Below are positions 32,430-64,000 of a stretch of 64,000 nt of DNA, one piece after another. Within the stretch, counting starts at the first letter, position 1. Each line of letters starts with the position of its first letter. The DNA comes from Siphonodentalium dalli. Lineage: Eukaryota; Mollusca; Scaphopoda; Gadilida; Siphonodentaliidae. Location: NCBI GenBank assembly GCA_032622095.1, contig CP136065.1:213756151-213820150 (forward strand). The letters run 5' to 3'. The position numbers and the translations under genes were made by a program. Under the pieces are notes generated by a model. The model was not told where the DNA came from. It made no database searches and saw only the letters and a program-made list of their open reading frames with translations.

Positions 32430-34456
32430 GTGAGTATATATATAGAATCTGCTTATGTTGTATGTATACTGCATGTTATTCGACCAGCAACGTGGCCAAC
32501 CGTGAACGGGTCATAATCTTTTGGCTGTCAAACACCAATAGCCCAACTTGACACTGTAGCTCCCCGCCACCAAGGAATCGGCCAAAGAGCCACACAACGC
32601 CGAGGAAAAACAGTTGTTCCAGGTGGCGATTTTGCATTAAAAACGTCCCGGCGCAATGATGGAAAGAATGCTATTTCGTCGTTCGTGTATTGTATACATG
32701 TAGTTCAAAAGTAATGACATAATTCTATTTGGAGGAGTGTGGTAGAGTGTTTTGCTGGGAACGCTATTTTTGTATAGTACTATTGGTGATGATACCACAT
32801 CCCTTTGTCGTACGCCGGATTATGTGTGTTTTTGGAGCTGTATACGGATTTCGGCTCTGTCGTTCGCCTGTTTCCAAAATGCAAAACTTCAAACGATCCA
32901 ATGCCCAGAATTCGGTCATTGTACTGCATAATTGCCTCATGCTTGCGCTTTTGAAATCGATACATATATATTAACTGATAAGCTCACTGCAATACCATAA
33001 TTTTCCCTACGCCAAATAATACGGCAATTATAAATAGCGTGGACCTATATTATCTCCGCGACTCTTGGATGGCGATCTGACCGAATGGCTAAAGTGCTCC
33101 GCGATGTACACTAAATATTAAGAAGAAACATATCGCTGTTATTGGTTTAAATTGCAATGTCTGTTTTCCAAAATATTCCTTATTGTTAAATTCTCAAGTT
33201 ACGCTAAAAGCCTGGATTTTTATGTCCCTTGAAATCCGGAAGGGATAAGGGGTGGTATTCTTGGTATTTTTCACACGGACATGTAGGTGTAACATGATTT
33301 CTAAGAACGGAAATATCTCGGTGTCACGAATTAGGTCGTCAAGCCAAGCAAACTGACTGGCTGTCACATTTACGAGACAAGTGTGCTCATCTGAAGAAAA
33401 AAACATGCATATCAAGTATATCACTGTATATATTGGATCAAACACCAACTTCAACTTTTTATGCAGTCTTTCATAACATGTACACATATACTGTATATTA
33501 GCTAATTAGTAATATTCAATTTATATTCAATTGGATATTATACTTATATCACGTGATATGACGTGCCATTGGAAGAACCATCGGGACTTCCGTAGTGCAA
33601 TTGCTGCACGGATCGATGCCCATATTATACTCCAAAGATCAAATATTAAATATACTACTATAACAGTAACATTTCTGGATAGAATAGCATGAACATGTCG
33701 TAGCTACTCCGAACAAGGTCTACTTTACGACATTATACAATAAAAAACTATTCCCAAAAAAAATAATTTATAAATCTAGAGTAGCGAACTGAGGAGTGAC
33801 GTCGGTCGTTTCATTTCCACGATACACTTATATAATGCCTATATAATATGTAAGGGACTAAAGTTCGAGACTGCACCTAGCACTATCTACGAACCATCTT
33901 AACCATAATATGTCATTGCTGGAGTGAACACAGTTGTTAGTGAAACGATTGACATTCCGTATTGTAGCCAAGTGCCCGAAGCCGCCTCGAGAGTTTGAAC
34001 ATAACACGTGGCTTAAATGACAACTTTATCAATGAGATTTGCGGATTATATCTTGTAATAAATAGTTTAATGCATAGCTGACTGTTATTTCATAGGATTC
34101 ATGTACTTATGGGTGAGAAAACTTTAGTAAAAATTACCGATCAATGGGACACATCTTCCCATTCTAAATCTCTATAGTTTCAAGTGCTGCATTGAAAGTA
34201 CGGAAGTGCATGACCGTGACCGATTTACCCGTGGATTAGGTAGTATTAGAACCCCGGCCCATGACGGCGAGCGCATCTTGCGACTTAAAGTCCGACATCA
34301 ATACCACACGGCCGCTGTATTCCGACGTCGCACATATGACAATATATGCACATTTTAAGGTCTCTATTGTGTATTATACATAGCAGATATGGCACATTAA
34401 CATGTTATATATACGTCACCGAAACACGCCGAGCGTTGCTCTTTGAACATGTCTGT
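32430..34456 (+). other. Lectin intron, 5' part
   Basis: Begins with the donor GTGAGT and runs to the left terminal repeat of the inserted transposon. Open frames at 32729-32974 and 33194-33487 have no recognisable domain. The full intron is 32430-41585. No additional lectin-like exon is visible, and none is needed because the exon phases and the fold join directly. Confidence 0.6.
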
Positions 34457-34605
34457 AGTCCAGGCACATTAGACATAAAAATGAGAAAGTAAGGAAAAAA
34501 ATCGGAGAAAGCTGATTTTTTTATATGTTTCCGGGACACACATTGCGGATAAAGTGTGAAAAGTCCCCGCGAATCCGAGTTGAGCTTTTTTAGTTATAGC
34601 GTTTT
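34457..34605 (+). repeat. Left terminal inverted repeat of the transposon
   Basis: Three blocks are shared, inverted, with 40390-40547: AGTCCAGGCACATTAG (terminal), AAAAAAATCGGAGAAAGCTG followed by ATTTTTT (about 34493-34521), and AATCCGAGTTGAGCTTTTTT (about 34571-34590). The spacers between blocks differ in sequence, so the arms match in blocks and not along their whole length. Confidence 0.8.
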
Positions 34606-35462
34606 TTATATGAAAAAAAAAATTGAAAAAAAAATTCGACCCAGCTCCATATTTCTCATTCTTATTCGCCTTAGTAGGGTGAGAATCATAAATATCGTGC
34701 TGAATTATATTGAGAATACATATCCCCAACAGAAAATGCCAACTTTGTACCAATCCTCACACTCAATGGTGAAATATTCACGAAAATGTACAAAATTACG
34801 AAAAAAAATTTAATTGTTTTCATACACACAACGGTACACAACGTCCATTAAATCAAATCTACGACTACTTTGGGAGTTAAATTATATATCAAAAATTGCA
34901 GAAAAGCAGTGGCTTTATAATGATATATAACAATAGTCATTTATTCCATAATGAACTGGTGAAACGTGTGAAATATTAACCATACCCCCTAAACTCAAAT
35001 TCAAACGGCATCGACTTTTCTCATTCAATTTCCTGATGAAAGTCGTTCAAGGCTATTTTGCATCAAAAAGAGCGTTGTTCGCCTACACTCAAGATGCATT
35101 GGCATGTAATGTGTGCACGCCCTTTATAAACAAATTTGTTACGACAACGCTCTTTAATTCCGCATTCCAGGTCTGTCCATTGCACAATTTGCTCTGTTCA
35201 GTATTGGACACTCCGCATTTGATGCCTAGATATTGAAACCAATGATCCCTTGATAGATACATATGTAATTTTGCCTGTTGTTGATTATTAGAGTCTTGTG
35301 TTATTTGTAGAACTGATCAGTTATGTTGTTGGCATATCACTTAGCGTTACCTGTTGATACCTTACGGTGACAACGAAGCAGGTCCGCACATTGATATCTG
35401 TTCTGTGGTATTGTACTTGAGTTTATTGTGTCTATCATCTTTTTTCTGTTGTGACTTTGGCA

Positions 35463-36596
35463 ATGGATAAATGTATCAAATGTAACGATGAGTTGACCGG
35501 CTCGTCCGGAATAACTACACTTGGTGAGCGGGGTATAGAAAAGTTGGTTGCTGTAAGCGTCGAGCTTGGCGATAATCTTTTTGCCGGTTCGAAGAAACCC
35601 ACAGTTGGTGAGAAAATTCACAGATTCTGCTACAAGAATTATACACGGGAAAGTTCTGTAAGAAAAAGTAAGAGAATGTCTCTAGATGCAGCTGAATCTG
35701 ACGAAGCTGGTCCATCTATGACAAAAAAATTGCGCTCTGATCAAGATGCTTTCAATTTTAAACTCCATTGTCTGTTCTGTGGAGAATCCGCCGACAAACA
35801 AACTCATATACCCGTTCAACGTAGAAGAGAAGTCCACACCGTTGAAACATTGACTCTTGTTGATAGTATCAGAACCCGTTGTTTGAAACGTAGTGATGAA
35901 TGGGGTGAGTCTGTACTTACTCGGATCGGTCGTGCTATCGATATAGTGGCCGAGGAAGGTCGGTATCACCATGATTGCTGGACAGGATTTGTCAGAGATA
36001 AGCCTGAGCGAACTCTTTCACGGGGTAGGCCTGTTGCAGACAAGAAAGCACTTGCATTCCATGAATTGTGTACCTTTATGGAGAACAGCGATGAGTGTCA
36101 GTTTTCCTTGAGCGAATTGGCAGAGACGTTTGAATCGTATCTTGGTGACGAAGTCGGTTACACAATTAAACATCTTAAAACCAAACTGCTTGAGCATTTC
36201 GGTAGTAGAATCTCTATTACAACACTGAGGTCCCTAAAAAATGTTGTCACATTCAGAGATTCATCAGACAAAATACTATATGATTCGTGGTACTCAGACA
36301 AATGTACCAATGAAACTGATGAACGTATGCGCATCGTCAAGAAAGCATCGGCTATAGTCCGCGATGATATTCGGTCAACCATTTACGAGTGTGACGTTTA
36401 TCCCAAACCCGATTCGTTATCTGTATCTAGTGATCTACTACCCGATACACTCCAAACCTTGTTACAAGGGATTGTTGCTCCGTCGCAGCGTGGGCAAAAC
36501 ATCCAAGCCAACCAGAGACGCGTGACAGCCATAGGTCAGTCTCTAATAAGTTCTTGTCGGCCCGTTCATTCTTGTCACCAGTATTATTGTCGGTAG
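35463..36596 (+). pseudogene. Transposon gene, segment A: N-terminal Cys/His clusters
   Basis: The ATG at 35463 is the first in frame; the frame stays open to a TAG at 36594-36596 (377 codons). It has CxxC at residues 4-7, an FCYKNYT segment, a second CxxC in LHCLFCGE (35763-35786) and an HHDCWTGF segment (35967-35990), suggesting two zinc-binding modules. A basic RKSKR stretch could be a nuclear signal. The frame is lost near 36555: protein-like sequence continues in another frame (segment B), and one missing base in the CGGCCCGTT region would explain the shift. No domain name can be given for this part. The style matches the N-termini of uncharacterised multicopy invertebrate proteins that end in nuclease and CXC modules. 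Confidence 0.7.
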
Positions 36597-37442
36597 CAGT
36601 TTACATACATAGGAAATTCGCATCTCGGGAATTGATCGACATTCTGAATGGACTAATGTTCTCTTCTAGCTACCGGGAAGTTCAACAATACGTTCATTCT
36701 GTCATGATAAGCAAAGGTCCGTCGCCTAGACTTGCGAACTTCACACAATTCGTTTTCGATAACGCCGATTGTAATGTGCGCACGCTAGATGGCAAGAATA
36801 CTTTCCATAGTATGGGAGGCATCGCCTGTATAACTCCAAGCAGAGATCACACAGAAGAGTCTCCGATAAAACGACTAACTGGTGATCATTCGAATATTGG
36901 CTCTGGTGAATTCGGGTACATCCCTTTGAAAGGTTACAGTAAACCAAGCAAATCGGGTCTTGACGAAATTGTGATGAAGGATTTATCAACATTGGGTGAA
37001 TCTGATCCGAAAAATTTGAAACTCGCAAAAACAGTCGACAGTCTTTGGTCTTTGACGCATGTACTGAGAGTACCTTGCCCATCTTGGGCTGGATATATGC
37101 ACATTGTCACATCATCAGATGATTATGAAACAAGTGATGTCGAGATACTTCCCTTTATTAATTTTGATCCATCCAACCCGAGCACAATTTACACTGCTCT
37201 CATGTTTGCACAAACTGAATGTGAGAAACAGGGACTGAACGTTTGTCCAGTGACGTTTGACCAACCACTTTATATCAAAGCAGTGGAGATTGTGTCTTCG
37301 TCAGATAAGTTGACAAAAGTTTTCGTTAGACTCGGCGGCTTCCATATGATTATGTCATATTTAGGGGCAATTGGTTCGATCATGGCTGGTAGCGGCTTGG
37401 ATGAACTTTGGAGGACTGTTTATGCTGGTGGGTCAATCCATC
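36554..37442 (+). pseudogene. Transposon gene, segment B: central region before the insertion
   Basis: This frame overlaps the end of segment A by about 40 bases and continues the same protein after a one-base frameshift. It encodes about 296 residues with no recognised domain, including FASRELIDILNGL at the start, VTFDQPLYIKAVEIV, and RLGGFHMIMSYLGAIGSIM near the end. The FHM-x4-LG-x-IG pattern is typical of this uncharacterised family in my recollection. The frame is ended artificially by the inserted retroelement tail at 37443-37577; the expected continuation starts again in segment C at 37578. Confidence 0.65.
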
Positions 37443-37577
37443 ATTAGGATAGGATAGGATAGGATATTTTATTTCAATATACATATAATAATTAATACAT
37501 AATACATTTGACAAATATTGTAATGTATATTCGAGGGGGTGGCATAGTCAGGCTAGACTGTCTTACTGTCACCCCCT
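37443..37577 (-). mobile_element. 5'-truncated retroelement tail (LINE or SINE) with (ATCCT)n end
   Basis: Read on the minus strand, the insert runs from GGGGGTGACAGTAAGACAG to TTGAAATAAAATA and ends in (TATCC)n. A 3' region with an AATAAA-like word and a pentanucleotide tail is typical of non-LTR retrotransposon insertions. It interrupts the transposon gene between codons that would otherwise be adjacent. The target duplication cannot be defined confidently because of the repeat tail. Confidence 0.6.
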
Positions 37578-38546
37578 TTGATCAGTGGTCATGCATATTC
37601 AAGAGCAGTTCGTGCCCATTTGCTAACACAAATTGCCATTACAAAACTTGTGTTTGAAGAAAGCCGAACACTAGATAACATAGACTGCACAGAAGTCAAT
37701 GAAATATTCTGTGGACTTGCCAGAGGTGACTGTACAACAGCTGACGCTGTCAATCAAGAAAGTGTCAACCATCTACTGTCAAAATTACACGAACTGCTCC
37801 AGAATGCGTCCGTAGGACGCACAGGAAAGCTTTGGGTACAATACTACGAGCAAATAGGTCTTCTCCAGTTGTTCTTGAGAGCAGAGCGCACAGGCGACTG
37901 GGAACTCCACACATATTGTGTTCGCAATATGATTCCAGTATTTCACGCAGGTGGTCATTTTGCATACGCAAAAAGTTCTCATCTCTATTTGCAGCAGATG
38001 AATGAGCTAACAGAAATAATGCAACAGGATGATTTGAAGTTGTTCACTGAGAAAGGTTACTTTACCATAAGGCGCTCAGATAAATTCTGGGACGGGATAT
38101 ATTCTGATCAGACCATAGAGCAGTGTTTAATGAGAATGTTCAAGCTCCCTGGTGGTCTCACACATGGCAGGGGAATAACCGATAGCACTGTTGCGAAATG
38201 GGTACATGGACTACCTCTTTGCCTTCCGATATGTAATGCTCTCGAAAATTTTGTTAATGTTCACACTGGTCATGGCGAACAACATCGGGATCTCCGTCAA
38301 AGTTCACAATTGACTGATGCCAATGATATCACCAAATTATTGAACTGGCTCAGAGTGCATTCCCCCTTTCAGATTAGAGATCCACTACAATTAGTCTCTA
38401 TAGCGACCGGGTTTGTGGCCGACGAAACTGTGAACTGTGACCAAGTTCGCAAAATTGGTGAATGTTGCGTATCGAATGTTGTAAGCAAAACGTTCAACAG
38501 CATCAAACTACGACGTGTTGACACTGTGAAGTCAAATGGCAAATAG
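37578..38546 (+). pseudogene. Transposon gene, segment C: central region after the insertion
   Basis: About 320 residues resume directly after the retroelement tail (MISGHAYSRAVRAHLL region; the first codon here is TTG, so this is not a start). Notable stretches are HFAYAKSSHLYLQQM, GYFTIRRSDKFWDGIYSD and GGLTHGRGITDSTVAKW, which recur in uncharacterised multicopy invertebrate proteins. The run of Asp, Arg, His and Trp residues could include catalytic positions, but I cannot map them to a DDE triad. The frame ends at TAG 38544-38546 and overlaps segment D by 11 bases in a different frame, consistent with a single extra base near 38535. Confidence 0.65.
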
Positions 38547-39921
38547 CATCAAAGTCCGTGGAAGTAAGGTAGTGATTGACCCCACAATTCTGTTCAACCG
38601 CATCACATGTGTTATTCAGTCACAAGCAGAGATGGAAGAGTATCTCAAATATGAACTCGCCCCGAAACCAACAGCATTGTTTGATTCTGCTGGAATGAGG
38701 AAGACACAGAAAAGCACGCTCGGTAAGATCCTCAAAACATACGGTTCCGAGCAAACTAAAATCCCAGAACATTCTCTGTTTGTTGTAGATGGTGGATTTT
38801 TATTGAGGGCAGTTGTATGGCCTAAACAGTCGTCATATAAGGACATATGTACATCATATTCCAATTATCTAGTGAGACATTTTGGGGCGAACGTCGTGGT
38901 TGTTTTTGATGGTTATGCTTAAGCCCGTAGATCTAAAAACAGGTATTCCATTGATATCAATATCTCACCCGAGTTACCAGCCACCACACCCCAATCCGAT
39001 TTCCTTGCAAATGCCAAGAACAAAACCCAACTGATCGATCTTCTAATGCAGGAGCTATCTGCTATCAATATTCAGTCCAAGCAGGCCGAGGCTGATGCTG
39101 ATGTACTGATAGCCGAAACTGCACTTGACATCGCTCAAGATGACAACAATGTTGTCGTTGTGGGAACAGACACAGACTTGTTAGTCATTCTTACCTCTCG
39201 AGTTCAACCGGGATGTAATATTCACATGATGTATTCCATTACCCAAAACTTACTAGTTTCAGTTAGTGAAATAGCAACCAAAATGGGTGACCATAGAAGC
39301 AACCTCCTTGTAGCACATTCTATAAGTGGTTTTGACACTACTTCTGCACTCTTTCGAGTTGGTAAGAAGAAAGTATTCAGTACAATTGTCTCCGATGTTA
39401 CTAGCGACTCACAACAGTATGTCAACACAATTTTGGCGGATGACAGTACACCAAGTGCAGTAGCCGCTGCCGGGGAACAACTTCTCCTGATCTTATACGG
39501 GAGTAAAACTGTTTCCTCTCTCGACCAATATAGATATGTCACTTACAAGCGTTATGTTGCAAAATCTAAACTGAATAAACCCATCGACCTAGCCTCACTC
39601 CCACCAAGCAGCGATGCTGCACAACAACATGTCTACGGATGTTATCTCCAGGTCCAACAATGGCTGGGCACTTCGCTTCCTCCGACGGATTGGGGGTGGT
39701 CGCTAGACAATGGACTTCTTGTACCGACTGCAGCCACAAAGCCATGTGCCCCCGATAACCTACTGAATCTGATCAGTTGTGGTTGCAAGAGTGCTTGTAC
39801 AAAAAGGTGTGGGTGTAAGAAGGCAGGACTCTCTTGCTCAGGTTTGTGTAATTGCAGTTCGGATTCTTGTAACAACCACAGAAACACTGTCCTGTCGGAA
39901 ATTTCTGAGTTCGATGAATAA
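38536..39921 (+). pseudogene. Transposon gene, segments D and E: FEN1/XPG-like nuclease plus CXC motif
   Basis: Segments D (38536-38922) and E (to 39921) share one frame, separated only by a TAA at 38920-38922. The acidic residues expected of a PIN-fold 5' nuclease are present: Asp in VVDGG (38788), Asp in VFDGY (38908), Glu and two Asp in EADAD (39088-39102), two Asp in GTDTDLLV (39169-39177), and Asp in GFDTT (39334) before a GKKK stretch resembling the FEN1/XPG DNA-binding turn. The last 50 residues hold a cysteine motif at 39778-39855, CxCx3Cx3CxCx6Cx3CxC, like tesmin/TSO1 CXC domains that bind DNA. I infer a DNA-binding nuclease, perhaps acting in transposition. The stop makes this copy inactive unless read through. 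Confidence 0.7.
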
Positions 39922-40389
39922 TATGTATATAGGTCATGTCATTTCTGTATATAGCGTTGATAATAGTCAATGTAACTTAATCCATGTTGATTGATTTGTA
40001 CATCGAAAATAGTTGAGTTCTCATGCTGACGAATTTTATGCCAAAAGGGGAACTCGGCCAGAAGCAGAGGGGGTCTTCCATAATGTCTATTTTGTAAGCA
40101 ATGATAAAAGTCTTCAAATGGTGGTGGATTTTTTATCGTCTGTCCAACTAACATCCCGTTCTGTGCTACGACCCTTTGGGCAAATCCGTTAGGAAAATCG
40201 TAATTTTTTGCGTAAATCCGATACTTTTTTGTGAATTTTCAATAATTTTTCGCAGAAATTGTCACAGAATGCACATTTTCCTCTAGGTAAATGTATATTA
40301 GACATTATGTAGCTCGAAATACGCGTAAACAAAAAATACAGTTGGATCAATTCGAGGTTACAAAGTTCGTGCGATTTATTTTGATTTTT

Positions 40390-40547
40390 TTCAAACGCGT
40401 TTTCGAAAAAAGGCTGTAGAAAAAAAAGCTCAACTCGGATTTTAGGAGACTTTTGTCTAATCGTTCAGTGACATGTACTCGACATTCCCTGAAAAAATCA
40501 GCTTTCTCCGATTTTTTTCCCTAGTGAAACCTAATGTGCCTGGACTA
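40390..40547 (-). repeat. Right terminal inverted repeat of the transposon
   Basis: On the minus strand from 40546: AGTCCAGGCACATTAG, then AAAAAAATCGGAGAAAGCTG, then AATCCGAGTTGAGCTTTTTT, in the same order as the left end. It lies about 470 bases beyond the stop codon of segment E. Confidence 0.8.
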
Positions 40548-62210: not shown

Positions 62211-62695
62211 CTGTGCATAAAAAACGATAAAAATATCTCATATCTCATTTTTCGGTTCTCGGGCATGAACATCTGGAGTTGCTCGTATTAATAAGTATAT
62301 AAGATGCATCACTCTTGTCGTTTCGATCTTGAAATGTCAAGGGCCAGGTCACAAACAGGTAGTTACAATTCAGTTCATCTGATGCATGGACTGCCCAACA
62401 ACTAGTGACTCATTATTATAAGGTTACTGTTTGACAGTCTATGCCCCTGATGGCTGACAATGATATTAATATAGTAAAATTAACATAAAAGCAAAATCTA
62501 ACTGGCAAAAGAATATTATGAAAAAGCAATAAAGACACCACATGTGTATGTCAAATATGGGGAAATGGCTAATATATAATATAAGCGTCATACTTTTTGC
62601 CAAATCCCTTTCTCTAAAATAATTGTCTTTATATATTATACAATTTTGTTAATTCGTGTGCATGATTTAGAGAAAGAAATACGTTTACACCATAC
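62211..62695 (-). other. Intron of the TRIM-like gene
   Basis: 485 bp bounded by CAG|GTATGG (donor at 62695-62694) and GCACAG|GT (acceptor at 62212-62211), phase 0. It contains no other recognised feature. Confidence 0.8.
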
Positions 62696-63406
62696 CTGCG
62701 CAGGTGAGACATTCGACGTTTTAGCGCAGCCTTCTGGAGATTTTCCTATAGAGTCACACAAAGCGTTTAGCTGGTTAGTCAGTTGTTGACTGATGTCTGG
62801 CTCATTCTGGATTGGTACAGAGAAGTGACCCTCTTTACTGCAATATTCGTACGGTTGCATCTGCGCTAGACCGTCGCGCAGTTTCGTCACCTGCATGTTT
62901 AGTTTAACTAGATCAACGGGGCCTCCAGATGATTTGTGCTCTGAGTCAGTTTTGTCCTCAATTCTAACTTTTTCACTAAGCTCTGCTATCAAGACTTCTA
63001 ATTCCTCGCTCTTGTGTAGTTGTTCCTTTATAGTATCCTTTCGATTGTCAATTAATGAACGGATTTTTTCGATGCTCTGTTGCTGAAATTTCTCGATTAT
63101 CGTTTGCAGTTGTCCACATAATTCGGTCACGTGATCAACGGCTTCGTCACACTGGTGTTGTGCATCATCGAACTGGTCACGTGATGTTGTCTTGGTGTGT
63201 TTACAACTCTTCAAGGCGTCATGCATTTTGGCAGTCAACGTCTCCAGCTCCTGTTGCAAATGACCTGCAGCGTAATCTATGTTCGATATTGAACAGTCTG
63301 GATAGGTTTTCTGGTGGCACGATGGGCAGCAATAGAGACCATGGTGTAAGCATAAACCTTGACCAATATCATTGTGTAAGATGCACTCTCTCTTTTTCGA
63401 AGACAT
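62696..63406 (-). CDS. TRIM-like gene, exon 1: B-box and coiled coil
   Basis: The start is placed at 63406 (MSSKKRECIL), just after a possible acceptor CCCTTCCAG ending at 63419. An upstream ATG at 63478 would add 24 residues without a recognised domain. Residues 8-38 form a B-box zinc finger: C8-x2-H11, C19-x2-H22, C26/C27-x2-C30 and H31, C38, with the last ligands shifted from the usual H-x2-H/C. Residues about 48-160 are charged heptads predicted to be coiled coil (LQQELETLTAKMHDALK, VTELCGQLQTIIEKF). The exon is exactly 237 codons and ends after Gln at a consensus donor. No RING finger is seen, so it is a RING-less TRIM-like protein of about 520 residues, of the TRIM2/3/71-like class expanded in molluscs. 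E3 ligase activity is not predicted from what is here. Confidence 0.82.
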
Positions 63407-64000
63407 CGCTTGTTGCTTCTGGAAGGGAAATATTGTTAGTTCAACAAAACCACGAATTGTGACTATACTTCGGTCCATAAGTGGTAGTTTCGTTCGTGTA
63501 GTTAAGGGCTGTCTTAAAAGATCTTGGGTTTTCGCTTGAGTTCTAGTTTTGATCTCTATATGCTGTATTAATTGTACATGTATACTTAAGTCTCGATATT
63601 GAAATGTATCATTCAGGTAAAATGTACTGCTAAATCCTTATTTTCTGTAACGTGGGATACAAACAAATGAAATTAGATAATTTCAACATGATCAAAAAGC
63701 AAAGATAGCCGTTCTCATATATATACGAGGTAAATTTTTGGAATACTTGCATATACAAGAGAATGCACTGGCACGTGATATGTAATGCTGCACCAGCGTA
63801 GCTCCCGTCATGGAATGGGTAACGTCAGCATATCCAACGAAACAGACTGTGTTTGTTGATGTGACGAAATCGACAAGCTGTTGGACCGGACGTAGACCAA
63901 GAGCAAACGCTAGTTAAATGGCCCTGATAGCATGGAGGGTATCACCCCCCCCCCCCCTTTCGGTACGCGGGATTCAGGGTGTTTTGAAGCCGTACGCGGG
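63407..64000. other. Right edge: 5' flank of the TRIM-like gene and a decayed hairpin
   Basis: 63712-63772 (CCGTTCTCATATATATACGAGG and ATACAAGAGAATGCACTGGCAC) is a mutated remnant of the GCCAATGCATTCTC hairpin family. A C-homopolymer lies at about 63945-63957, and GGTACGCGGG / CCGTACGCGGG words end the window. No promoter element is called. Confidence 0.45.

Follow-up and report, generated by a model that had tools for sequence, protein, structure and literature searches.

Academ transposons were reportedly established as a superfamily by Kapitonov and Jurka, and Kojima is said to have named the AcademX lineage within it, whose nuclease is of the XPG type. As described in the available part of one account, AcademX is a nuclease-encoding Academ lineage that generates 3- or 4-bp target duplications and has a nuclease in place of the helicase of AcademH (PMC10045372). 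The same part goes no further than to propose a link between the added enzyme and the length of the duplication (PMC10045372). Excerpts of other accounts mention a "RecQ Helicase in Academ" (PMC3627910) and give a mean length of 5565 bp for curated bivalve Academ elements (PMC10294476). Here we analyze a window of 64,000 nucleotides from the scaphopod Siphonodentalium dalli (contig CP136065.1, positions 213,756,151 to 213,820,150 of the forward strand) and the inverted-repeat element within it, which carries a single gene. We interpret this element, with a probability of about 0.82, as a very young autonomous cut-and-paste DNA transposon of the Academ superfamily, AcademX-like in type and represented in the window by a broken copy. 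We place it with AcademX because its nuclease-like domain, 3–4-bp target duplications and length of ~6 kb fit the published traits of that lineage.

The terminal inverted repeats of the element are 17 bp long and match at 100%, and two inner blocks are also inverted (32 bp, 97%; 49 bp, 82%). Inverted repeats and a size of ~5–6 kb, as expected of an Academ/AcademX element, are present together. The original observation of three matching inverted blocks around one intronless gene holds, with the left end one base farther out (34456). We searched the genome (2.23 Gb in 9 contigs) with the left 244 bp and the right 248 bp of the element and scored the best 40 candidates per search, so that the match counts are lower bounds. 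The left end has at least 27 full-length matches (94–100%) and the right end at least 27 (95–100%), the window included in each case. These matches and the shared gene bear out a multicopy DNA transposon with terminal inverted repeats and a single intronless gene. Comparison with 26 other loci (which left out, for example, a left end at C3:218227091 and split matches on C6 and C8) recovered both ends jointly in 25 of them, and the objection that no other copy shares both ends can be set aside. At the remaining locus (L042), the left end is absent from the stretch examined; its exclusion leaves 26 copies, the window's among them. Most copies (22 of 26) measure 5964–6092 bp, three are longer (L021, L030 and L037) and one is shorter (L041).

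Divergence was computed on the 22 copies of 5.9–6.15 kb. Each is only 4–18 substitutions away from the commonest base (0.07–0.30%), which points to a recent burst. The mean pairwise difference among these copies is 0.23–0.44%, and the closest pair does not fall below 0.13%. Furthermore, 10 of the 26 copies retain an open reading frame of 1444–1455 amino acids, which is exactly 1453 in six of them. Copy divergence and open frames fit a very recent multiplication of the element family. Other repeats in the genome (L061–L064) share only ~125–175 bp of one end at 78–85%, and related families or non-autonomous elements therefore exist.

Exact 3-bp target duplications flank 18 of the 26 copies, and exact 4-bp duplications flank four. 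The flanks agree at 3 bp in 19 copies, where shuffled pairings give 2.0 on average. In a raw tally of the 18 duplicated triplets, G never comes first and C never stands in the middle. The duplication at L033 is ambiguous, as this copy is flanked by a GA repeat. We also joined the flanks with one copy of the duplication to search for empty sites, using two queries that together contained 21 sites in full, with L027 divided between the two, and scoring the best 40 candidates per query. Empty sites were found for nine of the 21 (L023, L024, L025, L028, L031, L032, L035, L040 and L041); as scoring was limited to the best 40 candidates, the remaining 12 do not count as negative. The matches span the whole joined stretch of ~140 bp in other repeat copies, and the best per site reach 96–100%. 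Base-by-base alignment of six empty sites was gap-free in five (L031, L032, L035, L040 and L041), and the sixth (L028) has a single 2-base gap within a TG run ~16 bases from the junction; the empty sites of L023, L024 and L025 rest on match coordinates. L023 is one of the nine sites with an empty counterpart and bears a 4-bp duplication. Uninterrupted empty sites with one copy of the duplication establish the past mobility of the element and its exact ends. The duplications and empty sites that the earlier reading had proposed to look for were thus both recovered.

Some of these sites have features of their own. L040 and L041 (G000:C5:194544030-194555620) lie in opposite orientation, with target sites ~180 bp apart in one repeat, and this repeat occurs empty ~60 kb away and at other places. 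The empty L023 site (G000:C1:214580510-214580650) is ~5 kb from the filled one, which suggests a local duplication of the flank. hAT transposons generate 8-bp target duplications and Kolobok transposons duplicate TTAA. The 3–4-bp duplications do not fit hAT, and duplications such as CAG, CTG and ATA do not fit Kolobok.

The repeats that share just ~125–175 bp of one end would be expected if the gene belonged to a multicopy host family, or if the ends of unrelated miniature inverted-repeat transposable elements (MITEs) surrounded it by chance. However, ends and gene travel together, with duplications and empty sites, and the empty sites rule out both ideas, to which we give next to no credence. 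Nor are the homologues single-copy host genes without flanking repeats: the diverged relatives described below are multicopy, and of the three whose full sequence was read, two have terminal inverted repeats.

The undamaged gene encodes 1453 amino acids in six other copies. The window copy departs from the others by 10 substitutions, deletions of 1 bp (near 36563), 8 bp (near 38533) and 27 bp (at 38920), and a 133-bp insertion near 37444; the 27-bp deletion produces an in-frame stop. These lesions account for the broken frames noted originally, and the window element is a broken copy of its family. The 133-bp insert opens with TAGGA repeats and is itself high-copy, as 30 of the 40 scored matches (the window included) are full-length (131 bp) and identical. 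By eye, it resembles the 3' end of a retroposon in reversed orientation.

The predicted protein runs from an N-terminal Cys/His stretch through a central region with the motifs FDN/ADN, TFDQ, LGGFH and RAERTGDW to the PIN motifs and a CXC-type array. We identified in the central region three candidate catalytic residues (D433, D600 and E764) in the order of a D-D-E transposase. All three are kept in four full-length proteins from families that are 33–39% alike, with 38–39% identity to L038 in this region. The spacings in the four proteins (167–173 and 164–229 residues) would require a large insertion in any DDE domain, as is found in hAT-like transposases. A degenerate pattern around the LGGFH motif, GGFHxxMS[F/Y]xG, has 226 matches in the genome (~100 places were listed) and none in reversed form. 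Ten stretches were chosen for their differing versions of this pattern, and all ten encode relatives with 29–76% identity in matched pieces. The second Asp is kept in nine of these ten relatives and the Glu also in nine (in L051 by its matching frame); the first Asp is kept in six of the seven relatives that reach its position, where L043 is gapped.

With one relative as the query, the 61 scored candidates yielded 71 matches, and several of these have open frames of 1494–1585 amino acids. Three diverged relatives (L058, L059 and L060) were read complete, and inverted repeats reach the very ends in two of them. L059 starts with TAGTCTGGCTGT and has a 3-bp TAG duplication, L058 starts with TAGTGTGGTCGT and has TAT at both sides, and the terminal TAGT is common to both and to the window's family. 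The families of all three retain open frames of 1494–1575 amino acids, which suggests that several element lineages were recently active. Furthermore, comparison of two related families (L038 and L043) shows purifying selection on amino acids 319–1453: the proportion of synonymous differences (pS) is 0.68–0.79, near saturation, and that of nonsynonymous differences (pN) is 0.13–0.22 in each of five regions, including PIN and CXC, with the N-terminal region represented by 52 codons only.

The order of acidic motifs in FEN1 is the standard for comparing the nuclease-like part. The same order was found in L038, L043, L058, L059 and L060. The original reading of FEN/XPG-type acidic residues and a C-terminal cysteine array agrees with this conservation across five families and with the array seen here. 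The motifs it named are present in the window, but GFDTT is a change specific to the window copy: L018, L038, L043 and L058–L060 read GCDTT. Profile searches with the PIN region of L038 matched the flap endonuclease Xni of NCBIfam (E 3.5e-4) and the 5'-3' exonuclease family PF02739 (E 0.0013). A PIN profile had two matches only in the PDB, 2qip (E 0.8), which we take to be an NYN/PIN-type protein, and Exonuclease 1 (3qea, E 1.5), and L059 had a YacP-like NYN match in Pfam (E 0.052). The PIN region matched nothing in PHROGs or in a phage tblastn search. The putative PIN/FEN assignment is moderate by motif order and weak by profile. Cysteines of the N-terminal stretch are also found in L058–L060, and Pfam returned nothing significant for this stretch or for the CXC-type array. 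The array may be dispensable, as L058 and L060 either lack it or are unreadable there. Taken together, the motifs suggest a large protein that probably joins a cut-and-paste transposase to a flap-nuclease-like part.

Several results weigh against the AcademX-like interpretation of the element. The window copy (CTG on the left, TGG on the right, a duplication of at most 2 bp), L030 and L039 lack a 3–4-bp duplication. In the central region, the second Asp is missing from L049, where Asp also replaces the Glu, and the LGGFH motif, by which the relatives were chosen, does not count as independent evidence. Pfam and PDB searches of this region gave no match backing an RNase-H fold, so that of the two folds proposed earlier for profile checks only the PIN fold was recovered, and weakly. 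AlphaFold without alignments, run on pieces of the window protein, gave a predicted local distance difference test (pLDDT) of 32.8 and 34.8 and was uninformative on the fold. The central region had a single chance-level match in PHROGs (E 0.31), and the D-D-E alignment found no confirmed relatives among IMG/VR and GTDB contigs. As for the nuclease, every PIN profile match is under the curated cut-off, and neither Pfam nor NCBIfam matched L058–L060 to a flap nuclease. A sugar isomerase family (PF02502) matched L059 (E 5.8e-4) and L060 (E 0.0033); because it scores about equally, the weak PIN scores carry little weight. An XPG_I (PF00867) search of the same genome missed the element copies. Finally, homology to Academ transposases is putative, the AcademX placement being the most likely one by described traits.

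The observed ends, duplications, empty sites and conserved residues are the steps around which the most likely mechanism, a cut-and-paste one, can be proposed. The element ends would be bound by the Cys/His domain at the N-terminus, the CXC array at the C-terminus or both. The central domain with D433, D600 and E764, putatively an RNase-H-type DDE domain with a large insertion, would cut the 3' ends and join them to the target with a 3–4-bp stagger. The FEN/XPG-like PIN domain could process the other strand, either during excision, by cleaving the non-transferred 5' strand, or after strand transfer, by removing 5' flaps at the repair gap. Both options have precedents, as TnsA cuts the 5' strand for Tn7 and FEN1 is thought to process flaps at retroviral gaps. 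The assignment of strands to the cutting domains is inferred, as is the role of the Cys-rich parts in DNA binding.

The same residues could be assigned differently. If the FEN-like PIN domain catalyzed transposition and the central region had a structural role, the retention of the PIN acidic residues in L038, L043, L058, L059 and L060, the purifying selection on this region and the failure of the central region to match a transposase in profile and PDB searches would all be explained. However, conservation is higher in the central domain, with a mean column identity of 64% (four sequences) versus 51% for PIN (five, L043 being added), and its invariant acidic residues are in D..D..E order. Furthermore, PIN nucleases are hydrolases, and we know of none with strand-transfer activity. 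Conservation alone speaks for a flap-type nuclease as the catalyst, and we regard this as very improbable. The element could also represent a separate, unnamed superfamily that resembles AcademX only in its nuclease and 3–4-bp duplications. The central region has no match among known family models, and the AcademX likeness comes from described traits rather than direct sequence comparison, as such a superfamily would have it; the nuclease-like domain, the duplication of 3 or 4 bp and the length of ~6 kb nonetheless match the AcademX/Academ description in the available published text, making a separate superfamily unlikely. A further reading, improbable as a whole, is a currently mobile element that combines in one polypeptide a DDE-type transposase and a FEN-type flap nuclease needed for second-strand or flap processing, and that may stand outside Academ as a superfamily of its own.

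Table 1. Coordinates in the window of the element, its gene and the predicted protein motifs.
Feature	Position	Strand	Remarks
Whole element	34456..40547	+	6092 bp in the window; other 21 similar-length copies 5964–6079 bp
Left terminal inverted repeat, TAGTCCAGGCACATTAG	34456..34472	+	Inverted-repeat comparison
Second inverted block, left	34490..34521	+	97% complementary to 40492–40523
Third inverted block, left	34559..34607	+	82% complementary to 40406–40454
Single gene, five pieces here	35463..39921	+	35463–36596, 36554–37447, 37578–38546, 38536–38922, 39046–39921
Possible zinc-binding domain, N-terminal and Cys/His-rich (HCLFC ... HHDC)	35767..35980	+	Seen in the sequence
First candidate catalytic Asp, FDNAD, D433 of the 1453-aa frame	36758..36760	+	ADNVDHN in other families
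Second candidate catalytic Asp, TFDQ, D600	37259..37261	+	Kept in relatives
Inserted 133-bp repeat interrupting the gene	37445..37577	+	Edges approximate
Candidate catalytic Glu, RAERTGDW, E764	37884..37886	+	Kept in relatives
FEN/XPG-like PIN acidic residues	38798..39336	+	VVDGG 38798, VFDGY 38908, EADAD 39088–39102, GTDTD 39169–39177, G(C/F)DTT 39334
In-frame TAA	38920..38922	+	At the 27-bp deletion private to the window copy
C-terminal CXC-type cysteine array	39778..39870	+	Also in L043, L048 and L059
Third inverted block, right	40406..40454	+	Pairs with 34559–34607
Second inverted block, right	40492..40523	+	Pairs with 34490–34521
Right terminal inverted repeat	40531..40547	+	Pairs with 34456–34472

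Elsewhere in the window, an open frame of 280 amino acids on the reverse strand (62636–63478) has a Cys/His-rich start and by eye resembles a TRIM/B-box type protein. An Rfam scan of the window returned nothing at gathering scores.

The D-D-E candidates and the fit to published AcademX traits argue against the original view of the element as a class of its own without a recognized transposase. The family would be a practical subject for asking why a DDE-type transposon would carry its own flap nuclease, because its copies lie 0.07–0.30% from the commonest base, 10 of 26 keep open frames and empty sites are at hand. FEN1, EXO1, XPG and the bacterial Xni resemble its nuclease-like part in acidic motif order and weak profile matches; they differ in being repair enzymes rather than part of a transposon protein, and the scores are below cut-offs. 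General Pfam scans gave no KDZ match that would indicate Zisupton/KDZ elements, and no search aimed at KDZ was made. KolobokE, KolobokD and KolobokP are, in the available text, likewise DDD/E transposons bearing an additional nuclease, but of other types (PMC9587614), whereas the duplications of our element vary between 3 and 4 bp. AcademH shares the superfamily and the possession of an extra DNA-processing enzyme; as far as the available description goes, it differs in having a helicase and 9–10-bp duplications (PMC10045372), where our element has a nuclease-like part and 3–4 bp. Indeed, these duplications and the lack of a helicase match when the L038 protein was searched against Pfam do not fit AcademH. 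The closest likeness is to AcademX, which in the accessible accounts shares the 3- or 4-bp duplications (18 and 4 of the 26 copies here), the nuclease-like part and the length of ~6 kb. The element described here differs from it in its young copies and, by description only, in its C-terminal CXC array.

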